IMG/VR virus record: IMGVR_UViG_3300002514_000166
Coordinates: 1-29,311 of that record
Source: a virus
Direction: 5' to 3' (one strand)
Length of the DNA: 29,311 bases
Below, in pieces: positions 1 to 28,893 of this stretch (positions are counted from its first letter, which is position 1; each line of letters starts with the position of its first letter). The notes beneath the pieces were generated by a model. It searched no databases. It saw only the letters and a program-made list of their open reading frames with translations, and was not told the DNA's origin. The translations under genes and the position numbers were made by a program.

Positions 1-207
1 GAGGGTTCAATCAAAATGAACTTAGAAGAGGTGTATAAAGATTACGGCCGGTTCAAGAAAAGGTCAAAAGAGCTTCAGAAATGGGTTTGTGAAGAATTCA
101 ATGAAGAAAAACAATATAAGAATTATATAAATTGCCTATCAGAATGGAGCCCATTTTCATCAGAAGAAATAGATGATTTGTTTAGCGAACTTATGACGGA
201 AGAGTAA
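1..207 (+). CDS. C-terminal end of a probable glycosyltransferase (5'-truncated by window edge)
   Basis: The reading frame is open from base 1 with no stop, so this is the last part of a longer gene; an internal ATG lies at 16. The visible 68 residues are charged and helical. They contain a segment (KKRSKELQKWVCEEFNEEK) typical of the C-terminal helix of GT4 glycosyltransferases, where a Trp/Phe-rich stretch follows the second Rossmann domain. The gene is followed by several glycosyltransferases, and its stop overlaps the next start by one base (TAATG). That supports a role in the same glycan-assembly cluster. A free-standing 63-aa protein starting at 16 is possible, but no convincing ribosome binding site precedes it. 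The catalytic domain is outside the window, so the sugar and acceptor are unknown. Confidence 0.55.
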   Translation, partial: EGSIKMNLEEVYKDYGRFKKRSKELQKWVCEEFNEEKQYKNYINCLSEWSPFSSEEIDDLFSELMTEE

Positions 208-1823
208 TGATTATATTTATATCTGATTTTTTCTCTGATCAGGTCACTGGCGGCGCCGAACTAACTACCGACGCCATTATTGAATCATCTCTGTTCCCTG
301 TTAATAAGATATTATCTAAACAGGTTACTTTAGAAGTAATGAAAAAACACAGAGATGATTTTTGGATATTTGGCAATTTTTCAGGGTTGAACAAAGAAGC
401 TATTGTATATGCTATAAAAAACCTAGATTATTCTATAATAGAATATGATTATAAATTTTGTCAATTTAGATCAGTTAAGAAACACATCAAACATGAAGAT
501 AAGTGTGAATGCGAAAAAGGGGTTATTGGAAAACTAGTAGCTTCTTTTTTTGCAAGATCAAAAATGAATTTTTGGATGTCCCAGAAACAATTGGAAATAT
601 ACCAAGAACGTTTTCCATTTCTGCAACACAATAACACTGTCCTAAGCTCTGTTTTCTCAGATAAGACCATGGATTATCTAAAAAAGCTAGATACCAGCGA
701 TAAAAATGATAAATGGATCATCTTAAAGTCTCCTTCATGGATTAAGGGGACGGAAGACGCAATTCATTATGCTGAAAAGGAAAATCTAGACTATGAGCTA
801 GTCTGGGGCCTAGAGCATAAGTATCTTTTGCAAAAATTAGCCTCTTCAAGGGGCTTAATATTTTTACCTCGTGGTAGAGATACTTGTCCTCGTTTAGTAT
901 TAGAAGCTAAAATACTAAATTGTGAGTTAATCCTAAATGATGAAGTGCAGCATAAAGATGAAGAATGGTTTACTAACAAAAACACAATTATTGAGCATCT
1001 TCATACCCGCGGCTCTGTTTTTTGGAGAAAAATAGAAGAAATCGCGCCCGATAAGCTTAAAATCACGAAAAATAGCCCAAAAGGCGCCCATAACCTAAAA
1101 ATCGTTGTTCCGTTCTATAATGCGGAAAAATGGCTCCCAAAGTGTATAAAGAGCCTAAAAATACAAGATTATGGGCATTTTGAGTGCTTTTTGATCGATG
1201 ATGTATCCTCTGATGACAGTTATAACGCTGCAAAACGTGCTATAGGGCCAGATAAACGCTTTAAACTTGTTAAGAACAAGAAAAAGCGTTATGCTTTAGG
1301 AAATATATCTAGAACAATAGAAAAAGCTGATTGCGAGGATAACGACATCATTATTTTGATTGATGGTGATGATTGGTTGGCTAGTTCATATAGTTTGTCA
1401 ACTTTGGCATGCGCTTACGATGAAAAAGATTGTTTGATGACTTACGGAAACTATGTATACAATCCGACCGGTCAAAGAGGTATAGAGCCATCACAATACC
1501 CGGATGAAGTGATAAAAAATAATTTATTTCGCGAAGACACCTGGCGCGCCTCACATTTGAGGAGTTTTAAGTATTCTTTGTGGAAAAACTTAAATCATGA
1601 TGATCTTAAAGATGAAGAGGGCAATTATTACGCTATGGCATATGATCAGGCTATAATGTTACCTCTTCTGGAAATGGCTTCTACTAGATCAAGATATATT
1701 GAAGACACTCTTTATGTTTATAATAAGGACAACCCTATAAACGTCGATAAAATAAAAGCTGAGCAACAATACGCCACAGCTCGGAAAATCAGAAAAAAGA
1801 AAAAGTATACGGCGGTGCAATGA
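207..1823 (+). CDS. Two-domain glycosyltransferase (GT4-like N-terminus fused to GT2 C-terminus)
   Basis: This 538-aa protein appears to hold two glycosyltransferase modules. Residues 1-290 resemble a GT4/GT-B enzyme. They have an N-terminal GGAE segment at about residue 15 and a late DTCPRLVLE stretch (D225-x7-E233) in the position of the GT4 E-x7-E motif. Residues 296-538 are a GT2/GT-A domain that starts with the classic NLKIVVPFYNAEKWL strand-loop and includes FLIDDVSSDDS. The metal-binding DGDDW is at 386-390, and a later acidic DQA segment fits the catalytic-base region. Such enzymes move sugars from nucleotide-sugar donors to a glycan in the cytoplasm. The start codon overlaps the preceding stop, and the stop overlaps the next start (ATGA), so translation is probably coupled. 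The N-terminal half may be degenerate because the first Glu of the motif is Asp. Confidence 0.85.
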   Translation: MIIFISDFFSDQVTGGAELTTDAIIESSLFPVNKILSKQVTLEVMKKHRDDFWIFGNFSGLNKEAIVYAIKNLDYSIIEYDYKFCQFRSVKKHIKHEDKCECEKGVIGKLVASFFARSKMNFWMSQKQLEIYQERFPFLQHNNTVLSSVFSDKTMDYLKKLDTSDKNDKWIILKSPSWIKGTEDAIHYAEKENLDYELVWGLEHKYLLQKLASSRGLIFLPRGRDTCPRLVLEAKILNCELILNDEVQHKDEEWFTNKNTIIEHLHTRGSVFWRKIEEIAPDKLKITKNSPKGAHNLKIVVPFYNAEKWLPKCIKSLKIQDYGHFECFLIDDVSSDDSYNAAKRAIGPDKRFKLVKNKKKRYALGNISRTIEKADCEDNDIIILIDGDDWLASSYSLSTLACAYDEKDCLMTYGNYVYNPTGQRGIEPSQYPDEVIKNNLFREDTWRASHLRSFKYSLWKNLNHDDLKDEEGNYYAMAYDQAIMLPLLEMASTRSRYIEDTLYVYNKDNPINVDKIKAEQQYATARKIRKKKKYTAVQ

Positions 1824-2734
1824 ACATACATCTAGAAAATGTAAATCTACAGAGTACTTCTGGCCCAAACCACTTTGCATCAAAATTAATCAAATATTTA
1901 GATGCTACATTTGAATCAGAACAAAAGCCGGATATTAGACTTTGTTTTATAGAGGCTCATGAACAATATTCCGACGGTATACCTTTAGTCCAGCGTTTAG
2001 ACGGTATATACTTTAATAAAACACAAAATTATAAGCTTCAAAATACGAATATTAGAAGGACCTATAATAACGCCAACGGCGTCATATTCCAAACGAATTT
2101 TAATAAAAAATTAATAACGAAATATTTTGGAAATCATAAAAATTCAGTTGTTATCCATAATGGAGCAGATACTGAATATATCAAGAATATTAAGCCTTTA
2201 CAAGACAAAATATTTGATAAATACGAAACTATTTGGTCTTGTGCCTCTTCGTGGAGACCGCATAAGCGTTTACAAGAAAATATTAAGTATTTTTTGGAGC
2301 ACTCTTCACCAAAAGACTTATTGGTTATTGCTGGTCATACTGATATCGATATTACTAACGACGAAAGAGTAATATATGTCGGCAATTTGAATATTGAACA
2401 GCTGATCTCTTTATACAAAAGATCTGACAACTTTATACATTTGGCATGGCTTGATCACTGTCCTAACGTTGTTGTAGATGCCAGAGCATCTGGGTGTAGA
2501 ATAATATGTTCCAGCTCTGGAGGGACAAAAGAGATCGCTGGTTCTGATGCAATAATAATAGAAGAGAACGAGTGGGATTTTCAGCCTGTTGAACTGTATA
2601 AGCCACCAAAGCTTAATTTCAGTAGACGAATTAAAAATAAGTTTGAAAGTGATTACAACATGAAAGTTGTGGCCACAAGGTACAAGAATTTTTTAGAAGA
2701 GGTTGTAAATGAAAATTTATACATTAAAAGCTAA
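1820..2734 (+). CDS. GT4-family glycosyltransferase
   Basis: This 304-aa protein has GT-B fold features. The N-terminal half ends in VIHNGAD, the usual hinge before the donor-binding domain. The second half carries SWRPHKRLQENIKYF, a WRPHKR segment typical of GT4 phosphate-binding loops. It continues with VIYVGNLNIEQLISLYKRSD and DHCPNVVVDARASGCRII. The last stretch aligns with the E-x7-E signature but has Asp at both positions (D212 and D220). The protein is shorter than typical 350-400 aa family members, mostly in the N-terminal domain. It presumably transfers a sugar from a nucleotide donor in the same pathway as its neighbours. The start overlaps the upstream stop as ATGA, and the end overlaps the next gene by 26 nt. 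Confidence 0.85.
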   Translation: MNIHLENVNLQSTSGPNHFASKLIKYLDATFESEQKPDIRLCFIEAHEQYSDGIPLVQRLDGIYFNKTQNYKLQNTNIRRTYNNANGVIFQTNFNKKLITKYFGNHKNSVVIHNGADTEYIKNIKPLQDKIFDKYETIWSCASSWRPHKRLQENIKYFLEHSSPKDLLVIAGHTDIDITNDERVIYVGNLNIEQLISLYKRSDNFIHLAWLDHCPNVVVDARASGCRIICSSSGGTKEIAGSDAIIIEENEWDFQPVELYKPPKLNFSRRIKNKFESDYNMKVVATRYKNFLEEVVNENLYIKS

Positions 2735-3623
2735 TGAAAATTGGATTTGTGATCGATTTGTTGAGGAATGGATAAGATACAATGGCGCTATCCACGAACC
2801 AGACCCAAACAAATCAGATATTATTTGGGTATTATCGTCTTGGCAATGGAGAAATATTCCTTTAAGTTTATTAGCTAATAAGAAAGTTGTAGTTACTATA
2901 CATCATATTGTGCCTGAAAAACTTAAACAACAGCAATATAAAAATTTTAAAGAGCTGGAAAAATTTGTTGATGTTTACCACGTTCCAAGCAAAAAAAGTT
3001 ACAATCAAGTAAAACTGTTTACAACAAAAACAATTAAACAGATTCCTTTTTGGGTAAATCAAAATTTATGGTTTCCTTTAAATAAAGAAGATATTAGAGA
3101 AAAATATAAATTTAATAAAAATGCATTTTTGATAGGCTCTTTCCAGAGAGATACAGAAGGAAGTGATTTAAAAAGCCCAAAACTTGAAAAAGGACCAGAT
3201 TTATTTTGTGATTATGTTGTCGAGGAATCTAGAAAAAGAGATAATTTAGAAGTTATTTTAGCCGGCTGGCGCAGGCAATATGTAATCAAACGATTACAGG
3301 AGAATAATGTGCCTTTTAAATATTTTGAATTATGTGATTTTCATACTTTGAACGACCTATACAATAGCTTAGATTTATATGTAGTTTCTTCTAGATATGA
3401 AGGAGGCCCACAAGCTATAGTAGAATGCGCAATAACAAAAACTCCGATTATTTCAACAGACGTTGGTTTAGCCTCAAGCATATTATCATCAGAAAGTATT
3501 TTTTCACCCGAGGAGGAAGAAGAAGCAAAACCAAATATTGAATATGCATATAATAATGTGCTAAAGTATATTATACCTCAAGGGTTTAACGCTTTCGTTG
3601 AAATGTTTGAAGAGTTAATATAA
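2709..3623 (+). CDS. GT4-family glycosyltransferase
   Basis: This 304-aa GT-B type protein has HHIVPEK in the N-terminal domain, where GT4 enzymes carry an acceptor-side His. Residues around 140-165 (IGSFQRDTEGSDLKSPKLEK) form the donor-domain glycine/lysine loop. A canonical E-x7-E motif is present in YEGGPQAIVECA (E231 and E239), followed by TPIISTDVG. The start at 2709 has AGAGG about 7 nt upstream and overlaps the previous gene by 26 nt. The stop abuts the ATG of the next gene with no spacer. Donor and acceptor cannot be told from sequence. The coding DNA is extremely AT-rich: I counted 9 G/C in the 60 bases from 3061. Confidence 0.87.
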   Translation: MKIYTLKANENWICDRFVEEWIRYNGAIHEPDPNKSDIIWVLSSWQWRNIPLSLLANKKVVVTIHHIVPEKLKQQQYKNFKELEKFVDVYHVPSKKSYNQVKLFTTKTIKQIPFWVNQNLWFPLNKEDIREKYKFNKNAFLIGSFQRDTEGSDLKSPKLEKGPDLFCDYVVEESRKRDNLEVILAGWRRQYVIKRLQENNVPFKYFELCDFHTLNDLYNSLDLYVVSSRYEGGPQAIVECAITKTPIISTDVGLASSILSSESIFSPEEEEEAKPNIEYAYNNVLKYIIPQGFNAFVEMFEELI

Positions 3624-4547
3624 ATGAAAATATTTTTTAACAGAAAGCCGGTTGATGGCCCATGGGGCGGAGGAGCAAGCTTTACTAGGAATATGTCAAA
3701 ATATTTTTTGGATAATGGCCATGAAGTTATCTATGAATTAAAAAAAGATATTGATTTGATTTTTATGATTGATCCACGACCAAACGAAAATGGGTGTTCT
3801 GTAAACGAGATTTTAGATTATAAAAATTATTTTCCAAATACTAAAGTCTGTCATAGAATTAACGAATGTGACAAACGAAAAAATACTGATTTTATAGATC
3901 AGCTTATCTTAAAATCAAACGCCTCAGTAGCAGATATGACCATATTTATTAGTGATTGGTTAAAAAAATATTTTATTGAAAAAGGCTTTTCCAAAGATTC
4001 AGTTTCCATATACAATGGTTGCAACGGTAATTTTTTCTATACTAAAAAGCATGATTTACACGATCGCCCAAGGCTTGTAACCCATCATTGGTCTGATAAC
4101 TGGATGAAGGGTTTTGACTTATATACAAAAATAGATGAATATTTAAGTGAAGATAATGATTTTGAATTTACCTATATAGGAAGATATTACAAAGGATATC
4201 GACCAAAAAACACGCGTATTATACAACCTATACACGGGGATCAACTAGGCGAAGAATTAAGGAAACATGATATTTATGTAACTGCTAGCAGATACGAACC
4301 ATGTGGAATGCATCATATTGAAGGTTCAGCCTGCGGTCTCCCAGTTTTATATCATGAAGACGGCGGCGGGATAAACGAGCTTTGCCACAACCATGGTGAG
4401 TCTTTTAAAAATTTTGATGATTTTATTGCAGCGCTCAACAAGGTAAAGAAGCACTATAAAGAATATGTTAATAAAATAAACCATGATTTTCTTCTTGCAG
4501 AAAGATGTTGTAAACAGTACTATGAATTTATAAACAAAGGAATATAA
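3624..4547 (+). CDS. GT4-family glycosyltransferase
   Basis: This 307-aa protein starts with a glycine-rich loop (WGGGASFTRNM) typical of GT4 enzymes and has VSIYNGCNGNFF at the domain hinge. THHWSDNWMKGFDLY and FTYIGRYYKGY lie in the donor domain. A canonical E-x7-E motif is present in YEPCGMHHIEGSACGLPVL (E225 and E233). It is the third consecutive single-domain GT4 enzyme of almost identical length. This suggests duplication and divergence of a compact phage form, although sequence similarity outside the motifs is low. The preceding stop and this ATG are directly adjacent, and the SD-like GAAGAG is about 9 nt upstream. Substrates are unknown. Confidence 0.87.
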   Translation: MKIFFNRKPVDGPWGGGASFTRNMSKYFLDNGHEVIYELKKDIDLIFMIDPRPNENGCSVNEILDYKNYFPNTKVCHRINECDKRKNTDFIDQLILKSNASVADMTIFISDWLKKYFIEKGFSKDSVSIYNGCNGNFFYTKKHDLHDRPRLVTHHWSDNWMKGFDLYTKIDEYLSEDNDFEFTYIGRYYKGYRPKNTRIIQPIHGDQLGEELRKHDIYVTASRYEPCGMHHIEGSACGLPVLYHEDGGGINELCHNHGESFKNFDDFIAALNKVKKHYKEYVNKINHDFLLAERCCKQYYEFINKGI

Positions 4548-5120
4548 ATGGATGAAGGTGTAATATTAGAAAACATACCAGATAAAAGAGAGAACAAGGG
4601 TACTACCAGTTTAAAATTTAAGAAAGATTTAATTGAATTTTATAAAGATAAAAACAATGACACAATTATCGAGCTTGGAACCCATTTCGGATATTCTACT
4701 AAGGTTCTAAGCCATCTTTTCGAAAATGTTATAACTTTTGACAATAACTATGAAAAAACTTGTCTTGCCCGGGCCTTTAATCAAAAAAGAGATAATATAA
4801 CTTATTTTACTGAAGATGCATATAAATATCATTGGTGGGAAACATCTAATCAAGTAAGTGCTGTCTTTATTGACACAGTACATGTATACAACAATGTTGT
4901 GATGGACATTGAAAATTGTCTAAAAATTAACAATGAATGTCATATAATCTTTGATGATTATGGTATGTTTACAGATGTAAAAAGAGCTGTCGACGAATAT
5001 ATAGAAAATAAAAAACTTGAATTTATAAAATTTATTGGTGAACCAGCTGGTTCCGATTGTAGACCTGGTAAAATATTGAAAGATTGGGAGGGAGTCATAT
5101 GCAAGATAAACCAAAAATAG
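4548..5120 (+). CDS. Class I SAM-dependent methyltransferase (Methyltransf_24/CmcI-like)
   Basis: This 190-aa protein has a clear SAM-binding motif I, IIELGTHFGYST (E42, G44 and G48), followed by VITFDNNYEK, where the acidic residue would bind the ribose. Then come VFIDTVHVYNNVVMDIENCL and IIFDDYG. This layout matches the short methyltransferases related to CmcI/rhamnosyl O-methyltransferase families, which often need a divalent metal. In this setting it most likely O-methylates a sugar of the glycan or a precursor. AAGGA lies just upstream of the ATG. The last 22 nt overlap the next gene, whose ribosome binding site is inside this one. The acceptor is inferred from context only. Confidence 0.75.
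   Translation: MDEGVILENIPDKRENKGTTSLKFKKDLIEFYKDKNNDTIIELGTHFGYSTKVLSHLFENVITFDNNYEKTCLARAFNQKRDNITYFTEDAYKYHWWETSNQVSAVFIDTVHVYNNVVMDIENCLKINNECHIIFDDYGMFTDVKRAVDEYIENKKLEFIKFIGEPAGSDCRPGKILKDWEGVICKINQK
5086..5093 (+). promoter_or_regulatory. Ribosome binding site deciding the start at 5099
   Basis: A strong purine-rich SD (GGAGGGAG) lies inside the end of the methyltransferase gene, 5 nt before ATG 5099. An in-frame TTG at 5084 would place the SD inside the coding sequence and has no SD of its own, so 5099 is preferred. Confidence 0.75.
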
Positions 5121-5953
5121 CTATTGTTATGCACGGTCAAGCTGGAACTTCTAATAAATATGGAACAGGTACCGAATTAGATGTGGAACTATCTTATAAA
5201 CATTTTAAAAAACATATTTTAGATAAAAACCCTAATGTTGATGTTTTCATGCATAGTTGGTCGACTGATAGAAGAGAGAAACTAGTAAATTTATATTCTC
5301 CCAAGATTGATTATTTTGAGCCTCAGATTACATTTGATTTTGAATATACTGTCGGTGATCCCAATGGTCCTGGCGGAGAGATTAGCAAATGGAAAGATGG
5401 TAAATTTAAGGGCCTAGATAATTTGAGATTTCATGGACTTTTCAGCAGGTGGTACTCGGCTAAAATGGCCAATGAACTTAGATTGATTAATCAATGTCAA
5501 AACAATTTTGTTTATGATTATGTTATGTTAACTAGATATGATTTAGCATATGTTGAAGATTTTGATTTTTCTAGTTTTGACACAGGGAAGTTTTATGCAA
5601 TTCCGCCGATAAGTCATCACGGAATTCAAGATTTATGGTTTATAGGATCTGACAAAGATATGACTTTGCTTTGTCAGATGTATGATTGGATTAAAAAAAT
5701 AAATCATTTTCCGCATAAATTTACACACAGTCATTGGTTGACATTAAAATTTATAAACAATGTTGGTTTAGATGAAAAATTAGATTTTTTTGGTAGCGAA
5801 AGACCATGGGGTCAGGGTCCCGTGGGCGCCAAACTAGGTCCAAGTCCTTTAGTGAGAGACCATTATAACATTGCTGAAAAGACGCCTGATTCTGCCATGG
5901 GTGAAGTTAGAAACAAATTAAGACAAATTAGTGAAAGAAAGATAACTTGGTAA
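5099..5953 (+). CDS. Probable GT-A-like glycosyltransferase of uncharacterised viral type
   Basis: This 284-aa protein starts KIAIVMHGQAGT and continues VDVFMHSWSTDRREKLVNLYSPKIDYFEPQ. It then has RWYSAKMANELRLI and YDYVMLTRYDLAYVEDFDF. That arrangement is familiar from uncharacterised viral and bacterial proteins in polysaccharide loci. They have an N-terminal beta strand, an 'H-x-W' segment, and an R-Y-D-L motif likely to act like the DxD metal site of GT-A enzymes. A later stretch (SHHGIQDLWFIGSDKDM) fits the family's product-side loop. I infer a nucleotide-sugar transferase role from this pattern and the surrounding transferases. No named family can be assigned with certainty, and it could be an enzymatically unrelated GT-A fold protein. 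The start was chosen for its SD. Confidence 0.55.
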   Translation: MQDKPKIAIVMHGQAGTSNKYGTGTELDVELSYKHFKKHILDKNPNVDVFMHSWSTDRREKLVNLYSPKIDYFEPQITFDFEYTVGDPNGPGGEISKWKDGKFKGLDNLRFHGLFSRWYSAKMANELRLINQCQNNFVYDYVMLTRYDLAYVEDFDFSSFDTGKFYAIPPISHHGIQDLWFIGSDKDMTLLCQMYDWIKKINHFPHKFTHSHWLTLKFINNVGLDEKLDFFGSERPWGQGPVGAKLGPSPLVRDHYNIAEKTPDSAMGEVRNKLRQISERKITW

Positions 5954-5970: not shown

Positions 5971-6027
5971 TTGAACAAGCCGCACATGACTGAAAGAGAA
6001 ATTGATTTTTTTACAGGCAAGGTATGA
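5971..6027 (+). CDS. 18-codon small ORF translationally coupled to the HAD-cupin gene
   Basis: The ORF is TTG-initiated, follows an optimally spaced AAAGGAG, and encodes MNKPHMTEREIDFFTGKV. It ends in TGA inside ATGA, which also supplies the ATG of the downstream gene at 6024. The good SD and overlapping stop/start suggest that it is translated and delivers ribosomes to the next start, which lacks its own SD. It could be a leader peptide, a tiny protein, or the remaining N-terminus of a deleted gene. An alternative in-frame ATG lies at 5986. I do not recognise the peptide. Confidence 0.4.
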   Translation: MNKPHMTEREIDFFTGKV

Positions 6028-6728
6028 AAATGAACAACATAAAACACAAAACAATTTTTTGCGATATAGACGGTACTCTAATTAAACATTTCGGCGACCA
6101 AACTAAACAAATAAAAGAAAAACCTGTATTGCTTGATGGAACAATAGAGAAGCTCAACAGTTGGGATAGGCAGGGATATAGAATAATTTTAGTTACTGGC
6201 CGTCGAGAAAGTACAAGAAAAATCACTAAAAAGCAGCTTAATCAACTAGGGATATTTTATGATAAGTTGATAATGGGTCTTTCTGGCGCTGAAAGAGTAT
6301 TAATAAATGATAGGAAATCTGATGGCCGCAATACTGCACATGCTTTTAATATCGACAGAAATTTTGGTATTAGGAATATAGATCTAAATGAGAATACTCG
6401 TCCATGGGGTAGTTATGAAACACTACTAGATTCTACTGAATGTAAAGTAAAAAAGATTATTATCAAACCAGGTCAACAGCCAAGCTATCAGTACCACAAT
6501 AAGAGATCAGAATGCTGGGTAGTCACGCAAGGCCATGGTTTAGTTACGTTAAACGGAGAAGAAAATGAAGTTCAACCTGGATCAATTATAGAAGTACCCG
6601 CTGGCGCCAAACACAGAATAAAAAATATTGATAAAAATAAAGATTTGGTTTTTATTGAGGTGCAAACTGGAACTTATTTTGGAGAAGATGATATTGTAAG
6701 ACTTGAGGATCAATATGACAGAGACTAG
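6024..6728 (+). CDS. HAD-family phosphatase fused to a ManC-type cupin
   Basis: This 234-aa protein has two domains. Residues 10-120 are HAD-like. Motif I is CDIDGTLI with D14 and D16, motif II is ILVTGRRE with T58, and motif IV is LINDRKSDG with D96 and D100. This matches the small HAD phosphatases of capsule/LPS loci. Residues 125-225 are a cupin like the phosphomannose isomerase end of ManC/AlgA. It has RPWGSYE at 126-132, KPGQQPSYQYH (H158), RSECWVV (E163), a G-rich turn, then PGSIIEVPAGAKHRIKN (H197). The usual HHHR of ManC is reduced to H-N-K-R here. The first domain may dephosphorylate a sugar phosphate, and the cupin may isomerise or bind it. The start is coupled by ATGA, and Met3 (6030) is an alternative. 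Confidence 0.82.
   Translation: MKMNNIKHKTIFCDIDGTLIKHFGDQTKQIKEKPVLLDGTIEKLNSWDRQGYRIILVTGRRESTRKITKKQLNQLGIFYDKLIMGLSGAERVLINDRKSDGRNTAHAFNIDRNFGIRNIDLNENTRPWGSYETLLDSTECKVKKIIIKPGQQPSYQYHNKRSECWVVTQGHGLVTLNGEENEVQPGSIIEVPAGAKHRIKNIDKNKDLVFIEVQTGTYFGEDDIVRLEDQYDRD
6705..6709 (+). promoter_or_regulatory. Ribosome binding site deciding the start at 6715
   Basis: GAGGA lies 5 nt before ATG 6715, inside the end of the upstream gene. The frame extends back to TTG 6703, but that would put the SD within the coding sequence, so the ATG is chosen. Confidence 0.7.
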
Positions 6729-8292
6729 TGTTTTAATTACAACTAGTGGTATTGGAAGCCGTCTTGGAAACATTACTGAGTATACAAACAAGTGTTTAGT
6801 AAGAGTAGGTGATAAGCCAGCGATATCTTATATTATTGAAAATTATCCCCAAGATACACAATTTATTGTAACTCTTGGCTACTATGGCTACCATGTGCGC
6901 AGCTTTTTAGAAATTGCATACCCAGGCAAGAATTTTACTTTTATTGAGGTTGATAATTATAGCGGCCCAGGAAGTAGTCTTTGTTACTCTATTTTGCAGG
7001 CTAAAGATGTTTTACAGAGACCTTTTATATATCATGCATGTGACACAATAGTACAGGAGCCGTCGCCTGATTTAAACAATAATTGGTGCGCAGGGTTTAA
7101 AAAAGGTTTGGGATCTCAATATCGAAGTTTAAACGTTGTTAATAATTGCGTTAGCAAGATTAACGATAAAGGAGAGATACACTACGATTTTGATTATATT
7201 GGCCTGTGTGGTATAAGAGATTATGAACTATTTTGGCAAAAAATAGAAGAACTATATGCAACAGACCACTTAGACTCACAACTATCAGATTGTGACGTTA
7301 TCAATCTAATGCTTGAGACGGTTAGCTTTAAACATATGGAGTTTAAAAATTGGTTAGATATAGGAAACGTAGATAGCCTCGAAACAGCTAGAAGCAAGAT
7401 AGAAAATACATTCGACGTGTTAAACAAAGTTGATGAATCAATTTTTTTAGTTGAAAACCATATTATTAAATTTTTTCATAACGAAGAGATGTGCGCAAAT
7501 AGAATATTTCGTGGGCGTCAGTTAGAGGGCCTTGCACCCTCAATAGTTTCTTATAAAAATAATTTTTATAAATACAAATACGTGGAAGGAGAATTATGTG
7601 CCACGATAGCTAATCGATCAAATTTTGATGAACTTTTAAATTGGGCATCTAACAATCTATGGAAGCCTAATTCTAAAAAAGATATATCGAATTTATGCGA
7701 GAATTTCTATTTTGAAAAAACCTATAAAAGGATAAACGATTTTTTTAACAAAACCAATGATCAGGACAAGACAACGACAATTAATAATTTAGTGATACCT
7801 CCAATATTTGAAGTGATAAAAAAAATTGACAAAGAATGGCTTTGCAACGCAAAACCATATCAGTTCCACGGAGATTTTATATTAGATAATATAATAAAAA
7901 CTAAAGAAGGATTTTGCCTTTTAGATTGGAGGCAGGACTTTGGTGGAGATCTAAAATCGGGAGACATATATTATGATTTAGCAAAACTAGGCCACAATCT
8001 AGTTCTAAACCATGAAAATATAAAAAATAATCATTTTACGATAGAAAATCATAATGGCGAAATTACATGCGATATATTAATAAATTTTAGATTACTCGAA
8101 TGTCAAAAAACATTTCAGACCTTCTTGACTGAAAATAATTTTGATGTAGAAAAAGTGAACGTTCTGACTTCGCTTATTTGGCTAAACATGTCGGCGTTAC
8201 ATGAACATCCTTTAGATAAATTTCTATTTTACTTTGGAAAATATAATCTAGCTGTTAATTTGAGAGAAATACAAAATGAAATCAGAGAATAA
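6715..8292 (+). CDS. Nucleotidyltransferase-kinase fusion (LicC-like plus APH/choline-kinase-like)
   Basis: This 525-aa protein has two enzymatic halves. Residues 1-240 are a sugar/choline nucleotidyltransferase. They carry a start signature ITTSGIGSRLG (G12, G14, R16), K26 in NKCL, the PGSSLCYSILQAKD loop, and D110 in HACDTIV. Residues from about 250 to 525 resemble the aminoglycoside phosphotransferase/choline kinase fold. The catalytic loop is FHGDFILDN (H385, D387, N392) and the metal-binding segment is LLDWRQDFGG (D404). The enzyme would phosphorylate a small hydroxylated substrate and then transfer a nucleotide to it, giving an activated NDP or CDP building block. The combination recalls LicA plus LicC of phosphocholine pathways, but the substrate may be a sugar. 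It overlaps the previous gene by 14 nt and the next by 17 nt. Confidence 0.82.
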   Translation: MTETSVLITTSGIGSRLGNITEYTNKCLVRVGDKPAISYIIENYPQDTQFIVTLGYYGYHVRSFLEIAYPGKNFTFIEVDNYSGPGSSLCYSILQAKDVLQRPFIYHACDTIVQEPSPDLNNNWCAGFKKGLGSQYRSLNVVNNCVSKINDKGEIHYDFDYIGLCGIRDYELFWQKIEELYATDHLDSQLSDCDVINLMLETVSFKHMEFKNWLDIGNVDSLETARSKIENTFDVLNKVDESIFLVENHIIKFFHNEEMCANRIFRGRQLEGLAPSIVSYKNNFYKYKYVEGELCATIANRSNFDELLNWASNNLWKPNSKKDISNLCENFYFEKTYKRINDFFNKTNDQDKTTTINNLVIPPIFEVIKKIDKEWLCNAKPYQFHGDFILDNIIKTKEGFCLLDWRQDFGGDLKSGDIYYDLAKLGHNLVLNHENIKNNHFTIENHNGEITCDILINFRLLECQKTFQTFLTENNFDVEKVNVLTSLIWLNMSALHEHPLDKFLFYFGKYNLAVNLREIQNEIRE

Positions 8293-9295
8293 AACCAATA
8301 TTTATATTGGACCAATGTCTAAAAACATAGTCGATTCAGTAATACAATATTGTAGTGATAACGATACACAAATTGGTTTAATTCCTTCTAGAAGACAAGT
8401 TGAATACAACGGAGGCTATGTTAATAACTGGAAAACAAAAGAATTTGCTTCCTATATTCAGTCAAAAACTTCCAAAGTCAAGATTCAACGCGACCACGGA
8501 GGTAGATTACAGGGAAATGGAAGCACCGACTTTTTAAAATCATATGAAGAGGACGCTTTGTCTAATTTTGATTTAATACATATCGATCCATGGAAAAAAT
8601 TTGTTGATATAGAAGAGATGATAGAAGAAACAGCTAAAAATATAGAATTATGTTATTCTGTTAACCCTGAATGTTATTACGAAGTAGGAACAGAAGAAGC
8701 CATACATGGGTACACAGCGAATGAACTAAACTATTTCTTATCCGGCTTAAAAGATAGATTAGAACTTTTATGGAAAAAGATAAAATTCGCAGTTATCCAA
8801 TCAGGTACAAGAATAATAGGAACTGAAAATACAGGTATATTTGATGCCAAAAAATGTAAAAAAATGATTGATGTCTGCCGGCACCATGGTATCATGTCTA
8901 AAGAGCATAACGGAGATTATCTTAGTCTACAAGGCGTTAAAACTAGATTTGGTTTAGGATTAGACGGGATTAATATCGCGCCGCAATTTGGAGTTTCGGA
9001 AACAAAAATAATAGTTGAAGAGTTAAAGAAGAACAAACAAGGAGAATTATTAAATAATTTTTTTGATTTATGTTATTATAGTAATAAATGGAGAAAATGG
9101 TTGAGAAAAGATATCCAAGTTAATAAAAATACAAAAGATTTAATCCTTGCTGTAAGTGGCCATTATGTTTTTGCAGATCCAAATTTTATATCTATAAAAC
9201 AAAATATTGATAATATTGATGAAAAAATTATAATGGTCCATAAAAAAATGATACAAAATTTAATTCCTGTTTCTTGCCCAGGAATAAAATATTGA
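8276..9295 (+). CDS. GatZ/KbaZ-like TIM-barrel protein (tagatose-bisphosphate aldolase subunit family)
   Basis: This 339-aa protein resembles the GatZ/KbaZ family. An early strand carries IPSRRQVEYNGGYVNNWKT, parallel to the Q-V-N-x-x-GGYTG segment of that family. It is followed by VKIQRDHGGRLQGNG, parallel to the GGDHLGP turn, and then by FDLIHIDPWKKF, parallel to the KIHLD strand. Further barrel strands include CYYEVGTEEA, FAVIQSGTRI and GIMSKEHNGDYL. In bacteria GatZ supports the class II aldolase GatY; no GatY partner is visible here. The family also includes enzymes with independent activity, so this one may act alone on a phosphorylated keto-sugar or sugar acid. It sits between the activating fusion and an FkbM methyltransferase, which fits precursor synthesis. 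The family call is by motif pattern and not certain. Confidence 0.65.
   Translation: MKSENKTNIYIGPMSKNIVDSVIQYCSDNDTQIGLIPSRRQVEYNGGYVNNWKTKEFASYIQSKTSKVKIQRDHGGRLQGNGSTDFLKSYEEDALSNFDLIHIDPWKKFVDIEEMIEETAKNIELCYSVNPECYYEVGTEEAIHGYTANELNYFLSGLKDRLELLWKKIKFAVIQSGTRIIGTENTGIFDAKKCKKMIDVCRHHGIMSKEHNGDYLSLQGVKTRFGLGLDGINIAPQFGVSETKIIVEELKKNKQGELLNNFFDLCYYSNKWRKWLRKDIQVNKNTKDLILAVSGHYVFADPNFISIKQNIDNIDEKIIMVHKKMIQNLIPVSCPGIKY
9280..9283 (+). promoter_or_regulatory. Ribosome binding site supporting a TTG start at 9292
   Basis: AGGA stands 8 nt before TTG 9292. The longer frame from TTG 9274 has no SD and would only add six residues. TTG 9292 overlaps the upstream TGA (TTGA), as elsewhere in this cluster. 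Confidence 0.6.
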
Positions 9296-9897
9296 AACAT
9301 AAAGTAAGATTAAAAGATAATACCTACTTTAATATTGATATTGAGACAGGTGATTATATTATAGACTGTGGAGCAAACGTTGGTAATATTACTGAATATT
9401 TTCAATCTCTCGGAGCAATTGTAATAGCTTTCGAGCCTAATAAATTTGCTTTTGATATTTTACAAGAAAGATTTAAGAATAATAAAAGAGTAAAATGCGT
9501 GCAAAAGGGTGTTTCTGGCAAAAAAGGTACAGGTACTAAGAAATTGTTTCTTCATGAAAGAGCAAAAGAAAACCAAATTTTATGGTCTACTGGCTCTTCT
9601 ATAATAAAAGATAAAGGCAACGTAAATGAACATGATTATATAGACGTAGAAATGGTAGATTTGTGCGCATTTTTAAAATTTCTTAAAAGAGAAGTGAAAG
9701 TGTTAAAAATTGATATCGAAGGCGCCGAAGTTGAATTGTTAAACGATCTAATGGATGAGGGTTTATTACGAAAGATACCTTATATTTTTGTGGAAACGCA
9801 CGAAGAAAAGGCACCTTCTCTTTATGACACAACTAAAAAGCTTAAACAAAGAATAAAAGATGAAAATTATTCAAATATAAATTTGAATTGGATATAA
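9292..9897 (+). CDS. FkbM-family methyltransferase
   Basis: This 201-aa protein has the FkbM layout. SAM motif I is YIIDCGANVGNITEYF (D25, G27, G31). Next is VIAFEPNKFAFDIL, with the acidic residue that binds the ribose of SAM. Later come VKVLKIDIEGAEVELL, the most characteristic FkbM segment, and IFVETHE near the C-terminus. These enzymes O-methylate sugars of glycans and macrolides, so the substrate is probably a sugar of the same pathway. A TTG start with its own SD was chosen over a TTG 18 nt earlier. It is the second methyltransferase of the cluster and is unrelated in sequence to the first. Confidence 0.87.
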   Translation: MKHKVRLKDNTYFNIDIETGDYIIDCGANVGNITEYFQSLGAIVIAFEPNKFAFDILQERFKNNKRVKCVQKGVSGKKGTGTKKLFLHERAKENQILWSTGSSIIKDKGNVNEHDYIDVEMVDLCAFLKFLKREVKVLKIDIEGAEVELLNDLMDEGLLRKIPYIFVETHEEKAPSLYDTTKKLKQRIKDENYSNINLNWI

Positions 9898-9906
9898 GGA
9901 GAAAAA

Positions 9907-10794
9907 ATGTCTAGATGTTTAGTAACGGGCCACAAGGGTTATATTGGCTCTCGGTTATATAAGAAATTAAAAGAAGAAGGTCATGAAGTTATTGGTATAG
10001 ATCTTATGTCCGGCCAAGACATAAATGCAATTGACGGATTAACAGAAGCAAACGACGGAAAATTTCAAGTTTTTTGGTCGAACTTCCGTCCGGAATATGT
10101 TTTTCACATGGCTTGTATACCTAGAGTCGGTTATAGTATAGAACACCCCGTTGCAACGATGAAGAACAATGTTATAGCAGGTAGTAATGTATTAAATTTT
10201 GCGAGAAAGATTGGGGCAAAAAGAGTAATATATTCAAGCTCTTCATCTATTGTTGGAAACGGCGCCGGCCCAACCAGCCCATATGCTTTACAAAAATTAA
10301 CAACGGAAATAGAGACAAAATTATATTCAGAATTATATGATATTGATACTGTCTCTCTTAGATACTTCAATGTATACTCTGAAGACCAGCCTGCCGAAGG
10401 GCCATATGCAACAGCAATATCAAATTGGATGAAATATATAGCCCATAATAAGACGCCATTCATAACTGGCGATGGCGAACAAAGAAGAGATATGGTTCAC
10501 GTTGATGATGTTATTTCTGCAAATATTTTTGCTATGGAGCACAAGGAAAGCTTTGATGGAATAGTTTATGACGTGGGAACAGGAAAGAATATTTCTTTAA
10601 ATGAGGCGGTGGATATAATACATAAATATTTTCCAAATATTGAATTTGAGAAGCGGCCGAGCAGGCCAGGCGAAGTCTTATTAACAAAAGCCGACACAGA
10701 AGGGTTAAAAAAGCTAGGCTGGTGTGCTACAATAAGCGTAGAGGAAGGAATTGATAGTTGTTTCCGAAAACTAAAAGGAGAAAAGAGATGTTAA
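9907..10794 (+). CDS. NAD-dependent epimerase/dehydratase (extended SDR, UDP-glucose 4-epimerase-like)
   Basis: This 295-aa extended SDR has the Rossmann motif CLVTGHKGYIGSRL (G8, G11, G14) and an acidic residue at the end of strand 2 in VIGIDLM. The active site is SSSSSIVGNGAGPTSPYALQK, with the YxxxK pair at Y126 and K130. Substrate-side segments include VSLRYFNVY, GDGEQRRDMVHVDDV and YDVGTGKNISL, matching the UDP-glucose 4-epimerase/UDP-glucuronate epimerase group. It would convert a nucleotide sugar to its epimer in the cytosol. GGAG lies 5 nt before the ATG. The last 7 nt overlap the small gene that opens the next block, so this enzyme closes the glycan cluster. Confidence 0.9.
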   Translation: MSRCLVTGHKGYIGSRLYKKLKEEGHEVIGIDLMSGQDINAIDGLTEANDGKFQVFWSNFRPEYVFHMACIPRVGYSIEHPVATMKNNVIAGSNVLNFARKIGAKRVIYSSSSSIVGNGAGPTSPYALQKLTTEIETKLYSELYDIDTVSLRYFNVYSEDQPAEGPYATAISNWMKYIAHNKTPFITGDGEQRRDMVHVDDVISANIFAMEHKESFDGIVYDVGTGKNISLNEAVDIIHKYFPNIEFEKRPSRPGEVLLTKADTEGLKKLGWCATISVEEGIDSCFRKLKGEKRC

Positions 10795-26716: not shown

Positions 26717-27094
26717 ATGAACGGAATAGGGCCAGAACTACCGCTTAACAGAGATCATCGTTTTGGACTATTTTCTCTAATTACCAATTATAGGGATGAA
26801 GTAAGGCAAAATTTTAAAAATTTACTTCTTACCGCACCCGGAGAGCGCGTGATGATACCAGACTTCGGCGTAGGACTTAGGCACTTTTTGTTCGAACCAT
26901 CTCCTCAAGCAATTCCTGGAATAAGACAAAGGATAAGTTCGCAAGTAGCAAAATTTATGCCGTATATAAAAATCAATAAACTGCAATTTAATTCAAGCAA
27001 AGATTCACATGCTTTATCCATATTCATTGAATTTGATGTGCCAAGTATTAACCTTTCAACTTCTATGGTCCTTCAGTCCGAGGATGTTAACTAA
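26717..27094 (+). CDS. 25: gp25-like baseplate wedge protein
   Basis: This 125-aa protein matches the GPW/gp25 family in length and motifs. It has RFGLFSLITNYRDEVRQNFKNLL, the family core TAPGERVMIPDFGVGLRHFLFE, then IRQRISSQVAKFMPYIKINKL. Gp25 forms part of the baseplate wedge core, joining inner wedge proteins to the sheath-initiation ring, and is conserved across contractile tails. AAGGAG lies 9 nt before the ATG. The gene sits 10 nt after the giant protein and 2 nt before gp6. The gp25-gp6 order is the usual one for T4-like marine phages and supports this call. Confidence 0.93.
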   Translation: MNGIGPELPLNRDHRFGLFSLITNYRDEVRQNFKNLLLTAPGERVMIPDFGVGLRHFLFEPSPQAIPGIRQRISSQVAKFMPYIKINKLQFNSSKDSHALSIFIEFDVPSINLSTSMVLQSEDVN

Positions 27095-27096
27095 TC

Positions 27097-28893
27097 ATGT
27101 CGAAAAAAGATAAAAAACTAATAAGATACACAAACAGGGAATTTAATTCTATTAAAGAGGGTTTAATAGAATATACAAAAAGATATTATCCGGACATACA
27201 TAAAGATTTTTCAGACGCATCATTTGGTTCCCTGATGCTTGATACAGTTGCGTATGTGGGTGACACGCTTTCTTTTTATTTGGATTATCAAGCAAATGAG
27301 TCGTTTTTAGATACAGCCATAGAATATGATAATGTGGTCCGCCTAGGCGAACAAGTTGGTTATAAACAACCTTTGAGAGCTAATTCGTTTGGAACAGTAG
27401 TAATATATATATTGGCGCCCGTTATAACAACTGGCGCAGCCCCAGATACAAATTATCTTCCGGTGTTGGCCAGGGGAACAAAGTTCTCTTCCGATTCAGG
27501 TCAAGCATTTTCTTTAATTGATGATATAGATTTTGCGAATCCCAACAATGAAATTGTCGTGGCCACGGCGAACGATGCCGACGGCACGCCGACTGCTTTT
27601 GCTGTCAAGGCCTACGGGAGGGTAATATCTGGAGAAGAAGAACAAGAAATAGTAAATGTTGGCGATTTTACTAGATTTTTAACAATTCCGCTTTCAGATC
27701 CAAACATAACAGAAATAGTTTCTATCGTAGATGCAGAAGGGCACGAATATTTTGAAGTAGACTACCTTTCGCAGGACACAGTGTTCAGATCTGTTGTTAA
27801 CAAAGACCCAGCAACACGGGATTATGTACCAAATATTATTGTAACCACATCAGTTCCGCGCCGCTTTGTTACCTTTAACAGAAATGGTAGAATAGAAGTT
27901 AAGTTTGGTTATGGCTCTGACTCAGCGCTAAAAACGGACAATATTTCACACCCCTCCAATATCGTCTTAAAGATGCACGGCCGCGGTTACGAGACGGACG
28001 AGAGCCTAGATCCATCTAAATTATTAGTAACTGATAAATTTGGTATTGCGCCGGCTAACACGACACTTACAATAACATACAGAAAAAATACTTCTGACAA
28101 TGTTAATGTCGCTACTCGCGGACTTTCTTCGGTGGTTGACCCTATATTTGTTTTTGGTGAGAACGCGACGAATTCAAGTTCGATTTCTTTCGTTAGAGAG
28201 AGTCTTGAAGTTGTTAATGATGCGCCTATAACTGGTGATGTAAGTTTGCCGACGATTAACGAACTAAAACAAAGAGTTAATGATATTTTTGCATCTCAAA
28301 ATAGGGCGGTTACATCTGACGACTATGAGGCCTTAATTTACAGAATGCCAGCTAAATTTGGCCGCTTGAAGCGCGCAAGAATTGTGAGAGACCACGATTC
28401 CTTTAAAAGAAACCTTAATTTATATCTTTTATCGGAAGACACAGATAGAAATTTAATCACGAGCAGCCAAGTATTGAAAAATAACGTGAAAACCTGGCTT
28501 AACCATTACAGAATGATAAACGACACTATTGATATTCTAGATCCTAAAATTGTTAATATTGCAATCAAGTTTTCAGCAGTAGTGGATTATTCTGAAGACA
28601 AGTTTGAAGCATTAAATGCCGCGATTACTGAAATTCAGAATATGTTCTTAGAGAAGATGGATATTGGACAGCCTCTTTATATTACCAATATTTACGACAG
28701 ACTAAATAATCTAGACGAAATTGTTGATGTAACAAGTGTGGAAATAGAAAATAAAGCTGGTGCACTGTACTCAGATAGTTCTATCAACATAGACCAATAT
28801 ATTTCCGCTGATGGTAGAATACTCTATGCACCAGAAAATGTCATATATGAATTAAAATATCCTGCTTTAGATATTAAGGGGACAATTATATAA
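27097..28893 (+). CDS. 6: gp6-like baseplate wedge protein
   Basis: This 598-aa protein resembles T4 gp6 and its cyanophage relatives. It has IRYTNREFNSIKEGLIEYTK at the start and then SFGSLMLDTVAYVGDTLSFYLDYQANE. That helical core is shared with the gpJ-type baseplate proteins. A strand-rich middle (residues 110-350) follows. Then comes RAVTSDDYEALIYRMPAKFGR, the hallmark segment of the family, and a C-terminal part with VDVTSVEIENKAG. Gp6 dimers form the inner ring of the baseplate wedge. The length is close to the family norm. The stop overlaps the next ATG (TAATG), indicating coupled translation. Confidence 0.93.
   Translation: MSKKDKKLIRYTNREFNSIKEGLIEYTKRYYPDIHKDFSDASFGSLMLDTVAYVGDTLSFYLDYQANESFLDTAIEYDNVVRLGEQVGYKQPLRANSFGTVVIYILAPVITTGAAPDTNYLPVLARGTKFSSDSGQAFSLIDDIDFANPNNEIVVATANDADGTPTAFAVKAYGRVISGEEEQEIVNVGDFTRFLTIPLSDPNITEIVSIVDAEGHEYFEVDYLSQDTVFRSVVNKDPATRDYVPNIIVTTSVPRRFVTFNRNGRIEVKFGYGSDSALKTDNISHPSNIVLKMHGRGYETDESLDPSKLLVTDKFGIAPANTTLTITYRKNTSDNVNVATRGLSSVVDPIFVFGENATNSSSISFVRESLEVVNDAPITGDVSLPTINELKQRVNDIFASQNRAVTSDDYEALIYRMPAKFGRLKRARIVRDHDSFKRNLNLYLLSEDTDRNLITSSQVLKNNVKTWLNHYRMINDTIDILDPKIVNIAIKFSAVVDYSEDKFEALNAAITEIQNMFLEKMDIGQPLYITNIYDRLNNLDEIVDVTSVEIENKAGALYSDSSINIDQYISADGRILYAPENVIYELKYPALDIKGTII

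Follow-up and report, generated by a model that had tools for sequence, protein, structure and literature searches.

A conserved phage cassette with a GatZ-like barrel and a probable role in nucleotide-sugar activation

Two proteins of phage RB69, ORF055c and ORF53_52c, have been proposed to make uridine diphosphate (UDP)-arabinose (PMC6024577), and in RB69 relatives arabinose is reported to be joined directly to the C5 of cytosine (PMC13390438). In Escherichia coli, conversion of fructose 6-phosphate to tagatose 6-phosphate in vivo requires gatZ or kbaZ, whose products both act as fructose 6-phosphate C4 epimerases (PMC11907403). Here, we describe a locus of a marine phage with counterparts in both systems. 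It lies on a 29,311-base IMG/VR virus record, IMGVR_UViG_3300002514_000166, which was analyzed whole and is called the window; 17,017 of its bases are identical to part of a second IMG/VR contig of 41,310 bases. At positions 6024–9295, three plus-strand open reading frames (ORFs) encode a HAD-cupin protein (ORF1), a nucleotidyltransferase-kinase fusion (ORF2), and a TIM barrel (ORF3). Their frames overlap, by 14 and 17 nt if ORF2 starts at ATG 6715, which has AGGA upstream (TTGAGGATCAATATG); TTG 6703 is the other candidate start. An initial annotation had described this arrangement from the sequence and read it as one pathway, and ORFs, profiles, and folds all confirm the arrangement. With a probability of roughly two in three, we consider the genes to form one nucleotide-sugar activation cassette of the RB69 and cyanophage S-SRM01 type, comprising a barrel epimerase, a cupin isomerase, a kinase, a phosphatase, and a nucleotidyltransferase, with the product passing to glycosyltransferases. 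A search of a limited body of literature on GatZ in phages, or on such a cassette, found nothing relevant.

Linkage of the genes in phages and bacteria

A scan of viral contigs with the barrel motifs alone returned 180 relatives, which puts the number of contigs with a barrel gene at 180 or more; 80 relatives were kept. Co-occurrence was counted in the 71 barrel-seeded phage loci with adequate flanks. The nucleotidyltransferase-kinase fusion was present in all of them (71/71), the cupin in 68, a PNKP-type HAD in 60, and all four in 58; in 10 of the 11 loci without the PNKP-type HAD, the gene immediately following the barrel encodes another small HAD. When loci were seeded with the fusion motif instead, the barrel lay downstream in 65 of 66, the sole exception being phage locus L165. 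The genes are also joined in two different ways: HAD and cupin are rarely fused (in 2 of 80 loci, the window and L016), and a cupin-nucleotidyltransferase-kinase fusion occurs in 20 of 80 (e.g., L019 and L032). These counts mark the trio as a conserved cassette rather than a chance grouping. Accidental grouping of unrelated phage auxiliary genes might be read from the solo barrels of marine Flavobacteria, which occur without the fusion, and from barrels in phosphotransferase system (PTS) operons, both described below. For the phage clade it is refuted by the two sets of counts, and the two kinds of gene fusion and the position of the Flavobacterial barrels in the tree also speak against it, leaving it next to no credence.

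Some phage loci carry further genes. Of 93 non-redundant loci, 21 (among them L032:7372-7992) have an AroE-like gene (shikimate dehydrogenase N-domain) within or next to the cassette, close to the barrel and in the typical case separating it from the fusion; such a gene is also present at L184:17557-18381, which is bacterial, and at L288. In marine virus AG-345-E15 (L005:14986-16843), a HAD-bearing fusion with a nucleotidyltransferase-looking N-terminal part stands next to the barrel cassette, with an APH/choline-type kinase encoded separately after it; these extra genes are a parallel kit in a different arrangement.

The gene-order search that had been proposed as a check found the cassette in phages and a related set in bacteria. 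On six bacterial contigs (L184, L189, L289, L290, L293, and L321), a KdsC-type HAD, barrel, cupin, and fusion adjoin glycosyltransferases, and one bacterial cassette is adjoined by transketolase and AroE-like genes. An alphaproteobacterial single-cell genome (L184:8207-17576) holds two paralogous cassettes side by side, one of KdsC-HAD, barrel, cupin, and fusion and the other of cupin, fusion, SIS, and a split transketolase. A Bacteroidota survey returned mostly nucleotidyltransferase-only matches, with two true fusions. Gammaproteobacterial clusters (L295-L299) combine a capsule-phosphatase-type small HAD with a separate nucleotidyltransferase and a divergent fusion that bears a kinase and a degenerate-looking nucleotidyltransferase part.

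Barrels also occur outside cassettes. In marine Flavobacteria/Bacteroidetes (L167-L169, L171-L177, L179, L181, and L182), a solo barrel sits among housekeeping genes, in most of these genomes next to dehydrogenase genes of fumarate/succinate type, and the solo-barrel Flavobacteria had no fusion elsewhere in the genome at a comparable score. These barrels are nested within the phage clade (100/98 support), so they were probably captured from phage cassettes, and such capture leaves a joint function in phages unrefuted. The barrels of bacterial cassettes and PTS operons fall outside the phage clade, over a long, fully supported branch. The initial annotation had regarded homologs scattered through unrelated contexts as fatal to a joint pathway; such homologs do exist, but they contradict a joint pathway only superficially, since the solo barrels are nested in the phage clade and the PTS-operon relatives lie across the long branch. 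As clues to the substrate, the Flavobacterial neighborhoods were uninformative, consisting of housekeeping genes, and the PTS operons with a barrel relative, which include transketolase in 6 of 24 and transaldolase in 4 of 24, hinted at a pentulose or heptulose phosphate, though not strongly enough for a decision. Four Listeria phage LM records (OR846727, OR846732, OR848100, and OR848179) were rejected as phage homologs: they look like bacterial chromosome, because their GatZ-like gene lies in an ordinary PTS operon with an aldo-keto reductase and a metal ATPase.

The barrel and the two fusion proteins

The initial annotation had called the barrel an orphan. ORF3 alone gave no match in Pfam, NCBIfam, or PHROG, but the label no longer applies, as both fold and profile match E. 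coli GatZ. A profile of 84 barrel relatives matched PDB 2FIQ (E. coli GatZ; E=5e-5), and the single relative L003 matched PF08013 (GatZ_KbaZ-like) at E=2e-4 and 20.5 bits, against a gathering score of 26.7. The AlphaFold model of the barrel (predicted local distance difference test [pLDDT] score of 96) had 2FIQ as its best Foldseek match, with a template modeling score (TM-score) by query length of 0.77–0.82 across chains; the GatZ/KbaZ-type structures 2FIQ and 3TXV were the top matches and class II aldolases came next. Ligand sites were compared through aligned residues. Barrel residues D73, H74, E140, and H211 align with GatZ D87, H88, E171, and H257, for which roles as catalytic Asp and Zn ligands in the C4 epimerase have been proposed (PMC11907403); D73, H74, and H211 did not vary in the 84 sequences, and E140 is Glu in 82 and Asp in 2. 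We predict that the barrel is a Zn-dependent ketose-phosphate C4-epimerase. The earlier proposal that it epimerizes a phosphorylated keto-sugar agrees with the in vivo C4-epimerase activity of E. coli GatZ and KbaZ (PMC11907403).

Alternatively, the barrel could be an aldolase that joins a triose phosphate and an aldehyde into a longer ketose phosphate, which the KdsC- or PNKP-type HAD, kinase, and nucleotidyltransferase would then activate. Such a reaction would suit the class II aldolases among the next fold matches, the KdsC-type HADs (usual partners of condensing enzymes) that adjoin the barrel in bacteria, and the transketolase and AroE-like genes beside one bacterial cassette. The metal site, however, follows the pattern of GatZ (H, E, H plus D), not the three-histidine pattern of fructose-bisphosphate aldolase, and ribulose-phosphate 3-epimerase (RPE), an epimerase family, takes the equivalent place in L165 and bacterial contig L320 (see below). 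We therefore regard an aldolase as unlikely and retain the epimerase assignment.

The nucleotidyltransferase part of ORF2 matched Arch_glmU (E=1e-9) and PDB LicC, the latter at E=6e-4 with the single protein and at E=2e-11 by profile, and the kinase part is APH-type (PF01636, E=3e-4, under the Pfam gathering score). For the ORF2 AlphaFold model (pLDDT 95), the PDB structure matches were LicC, PntC, and HddC, with the phosphonate cytidylyltransferase PntC as top fold match, and RB69 ORF052c/053c was among the viral structure matches (BFVD). The nucleotidyltransferase carries the LicC/RmlA-type GxGxR...K signature and two Mg-binding Asp residues (G12, G14, R16, K26, D110, and D215), and the kinase has the APH-type set of HxD...N, Mg-binding Asp, and ATP-binding Lys (K252, H385, D387, N392, and D404). 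Among 71 sequences, K26, D110, D215, and all five kinase residues were without variation.

In ORF1, profile matches place a PNKP-type HAD at residues 9–85, and PF01050 (the C-terminal domain of type II phosphomannose isomerase) matched residues 123–229 at E=3e-27. HAD residues D14, D16, N95-D96, and K98 did not vary among 72 sequences, nor did cupin residues Q156, H158, E163, and H197 among 98; by analogy with phosphomannose isomerase, we take the latter four to be a Q/H/E/H metal site. The Pfam match and these conserved putative metal ligands assign the cupin to the type II phosphomannose isomerase family (PF01050).

Module swaps and the predicted pathway

Cyanophage S-SRM01 carries SIS, fusion, and HAD genes, and its fusion is homologous both to window ORF2 (hhalign 98.6) and to an RB69-type coliphage protein annotated as involved in UDP-arabinose biosynthesis, which adjoins a SIS isomerase and a phosphatase. 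Compared directly with that coliphage protein, the window fusion profile gave an hhalign probability of 97.4 over 464 columns; as judged by this alignment, the window nucleotidyltransferase-kinase is a full-length homolog of the RB69 protein proposed for UDP-arabinose. The HADs gave a mixed picture, with no BLASTP match between those of the window and Escherichia phage AlbertHofmann and an E value of 1e-19 for the S-SRM01 HAD against the HAD model. All 12 S-SRM01-type fusions lie between a KdsD/GutQ-like SIS and a HAD, and none of the 12 has a barrel. SIS, in turn, was found in 1 of 158 barrel- or fusion-seeded loci, namely the barrel-less L165, where the order is SIS, RPE, fusion, and KdsC-type HAD. 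The same set recurs on L320, with RPE and 6-phospho-3-hexuloisomerase above the NCBIfam cut-offs. A search of viral sequences with the L184 fusion as query returned no matches. The replacement of the barrel by RPE and SIS in L165 and L320 suggests that a ketose-phosphate epimerase together with an aldose-ketose isomerase supplies one common kinase-nucleotidyltransferase core, and by position, the barrel and cupin would fill the epimerase and isomerase slots in the window.

These swaps, together with the RB69 and cyanophage homologs, lead to a model of epimerase, isomerase, kinase, phosphatase, and nucleotidyltransferase. The substrate of the GatZ-like barrel would be a ketose phosphate, which it would epimerize through Zn-assisted retro-aldol/aldol chemistry with C4 as the probable site, and the cupin would turn the epimerized ketose phosphate into an aldose phosphate. 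The APH-type kinase would then phosphorylate the anomeric position and the HAD remove the terminal phosphate, in either order, before the fused nucleotidyltransferase forms a nucleoside diphosphate (NDP)-sugar that neighboring glycosyltransferases could consume. We infer every reaction in this phage from architecture, homology, catalytic residues, linkage, and swaps, and a pentose, hexose, or heptose product would each be compatible. The idea of a single pathway is strongly supported by the co-occurrence, the two fusion types, the invariant catalytic residues, and the exchange for known epimerase/isomerase pairs or SIS alone. The order first proposed, with the HAD before the kinase, does not stand as the only choice: the fused kinase-nucleotidyltransferase fits a HAD that acts first, but in the heptose pathway the kinase acts first, and that order fits equally.

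The cassette might instead activate a small non-sugar molecule in the manner of LicA and LicC, with the kinase acting on a small alcohol (choline, an aminoalcohol, or a polyol), the nucleotidyltransferase forming a cytidine diphosphate derivative, and assembly or trimming of the small molecule left to the barrel, cupin, and HAD. LicC as best PDB match, PntC as top fold match, and an APH/choline-kinase-like kinase would agree with this, but homologous fusions are paired with KdsD/GutQ-like or HxlB isomerases and with ribulose-phosphate epimerase, and the barrel and cupin come from sugar-phosphate enzyme families. We judge non-sugar activation to be quite unlikely.

Several points weigh against sugar activation by this route. 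The closest-fold nucleotidyltransferases (LicC and PntC) also act on small non-sugar phosphates, and the identity between barrel and GatZ is only 11–12%. The isomerase role of the cupin is tentative, because cupins are also present in SIS-containing cassettes (L184). The uniformity of the S-SRM01-type set may be partly ascertainment, since it was found with one query, and IMG/VR contigs are fragments. The GatZ C4-epimerase mechanism is based on genetics, modeling, and docking (PMC11907403), the roles of the RB69 proteins were assigned by inference only (PMC6024577), and TH1_060 showed no activity (PMC12838424).

Gene surroundings, sugar destination, and related systems

The cassette sits inside a single same-strand run of glycosyltransferase, methyltransferase, DUF7796-like, and nucleotide-sugar epimerase genes (Table 1). 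Baseplate wedge genes farther along the window support a tailed phage. Directly upstream of them are very large ORFs, possibly tail fiber or glycosylated structural proteins.

Table 1. Features of the window, with the evidence for each
Feature	Position	Strand	Evidence
HAD-cupin fusion protein (ORF1), 234 aa: PNKP-type HAD ~aa 1-118, type II phosphomannose-isomerase-like cupin ~aa 119-234	6024..6728	+	Pfam/NCBIfam/PHROG/PDB matches, residues
Nucleotidyltransferase-kinase fusion (ORF2), 525 aa (525-529 by start): predicted sugar-1-phosphate nucleotidyltransferase aa 1-~235, APH-type small-molecule/sugar kinase ~aa 240-525	6715 (or 6703)..8292	+	Profile matches, AlphaFold, residues
GatZ/KbaZ-type TIM barrel (ORF3), 339 aa; predicted Zn-dependent ketose-phosphate C4-epimerase	8276..9295	+	AlphaFold, Foldseek, profile, residues
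Family 2 glycosyltransferase (GT2), 538 aa, same operon; possible user of activated sugar	207..1823	+	PF00535 E=1e-19
Three GT4-type glycosyltransferases in a row	1820-2734, 2709-3623, 3624-4547	+	PF00534/PF13692
Methyltransferase	4548-5120	+	PF13578 E=2e-7
DUF7796-like protein, weak match	5084-5953	+	PF25072 E=1e-5, under gathering score
FkbM-family methyltransferase, overlaps barrel gene	9274..9897	+	TIGR01444 E=3e-25
NAD-dependent nucleotide-sugar epimerase/dehydratase	9907..10794	+	PF01370 E=3e-47; PHROG 540
Very large ORF, 1221 aa	12543-16208		No Pfam match
Very large ORF, 3025 aa	17629-26706		No Pfam match
gp25- and gp6-like baseplate wedge genes	26717-28893		PHROG matches

The activated sugar could be destined for phage DNA, the cassette making an NDP-pentose for hypermodification in the way that arabinose is used in RB69-type phages. 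The fusion is homologous to RB69 ORF53_52c, RB69 carries arabinosylated cytosine (PMC6024577, PMC13390438), and acceptor genes could lie in the missing genome parts of the window phage. Against this, the neighbors are glycosyltransferases, sugar epimerases, aminotransferases, and methyltransferases, and no gene like deoxycytidylate (dCMP) hydroxymethylase or thymidylate synthase was found near the 158 loci. Nine large records with a barrel cassette all lacked the U32-type enzyme that adjoins the RB69-type cassette, which was recovered in AlbertHofmann, the RB69-type positive control. PF00303 proteins occur elsewhere in five of nine large cassette-bearing records, from which nothing specific follows. 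The glycosyltransferase operon and the absence of U32 from the nine records favor a virion or surface glycan over DNA; we consider use in DNA rather improbable and a virion or cell-surface glycan the most likely target. A distant nucleotidyltransferase-kinase fusion in Enterococcus phage 9183 (L007) lies with an adjacent HAD among thymidylate synthase, dUTPase, and DNA polymerase genes, surroundings that suggest DNA modification in that phage.

Collectively, the cassette probably starts from a common sugar phosphate and supplies the glycosyltransferases of the phage itself with an unusual sugar in activated form. An unannotated phage protein family, the barrel, thereby gains a concrete, testable route, GatZ-family enzymes are predicted to have a role in nucleotide-sugar making, and the poorly understood sugar-activation core of RB69 type is seen to be modular, with isomerase or epimerase front ends exchanged. 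Much more tentatively, this may be a widespread phage-borne pathway, in marine and freshwater phages and occasionally in cells, that yields an NDP-activated rare sugar via a ketose-phosphate C4-epimerase, giving a glycan building block absent from the hosts, with the barrel captured solo in marine Flavobacteria.

Relative to known systems, the cassette represents an unreported variant of the putative route to activated arabinose in RB69. The RB69-type cassette (RB69 ORF055c and ORF53_52c; AlbertHofmann bas47_0153-0150) shares with it a fusion homologous over its full length, an adjacent small HAD, and a sugar-phosphate isomerase front end. That front end, however, is a KdsD/GutQ-like SIS, whereas the window has barrel and cupin and no SIS, and the RB69-type genes adjoin DNA polymerase, dCMP hydroxymethylase, and a U32-type gene, with the product going to DNA. 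The S-SRM01 operon of SIS, NDP-sugar synthase, and 3' phosphatase has a homologous fusion, a HAD, overlapping frames, and glycosyltransferase surroundings, but its SIS replaces barrel and cupin, and GDP-mannose dehydratase and GDP-fucose synthase are adjacent. E. coli GatZ/KbaZ (PF08013, 2FIQ) is the best fold match of the barrel and shares its Asp-His/Glu/His metal-site pattern, although the window barrel is ~80 residues shorter, is under the Pfam threshold, and belongs to a sugar-activation and not a galactitol operon. With LicC/LicA phosphocholine activation, the cassette has the kinase and cytidylyltransferase folds in common, but its partners are sugar-phosphate enzymes. Finally, the bacterial NDP-heptose pathway (GmhA, HddA or HldE, GmhB, and HddC) likewise combines a ketose-phosphate isomerase, an anomeric kinase, a HAD phosphatase, and a nucleotidyltransferase, and HddC is among the PDB matches of ORF2. 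In place of the GmhA SIS and GHMP/PfkB kinase of that pathway, neither of which was found in the cassette, the phage genes provide a fused APH-type kinase and an additional epimerase barrel.

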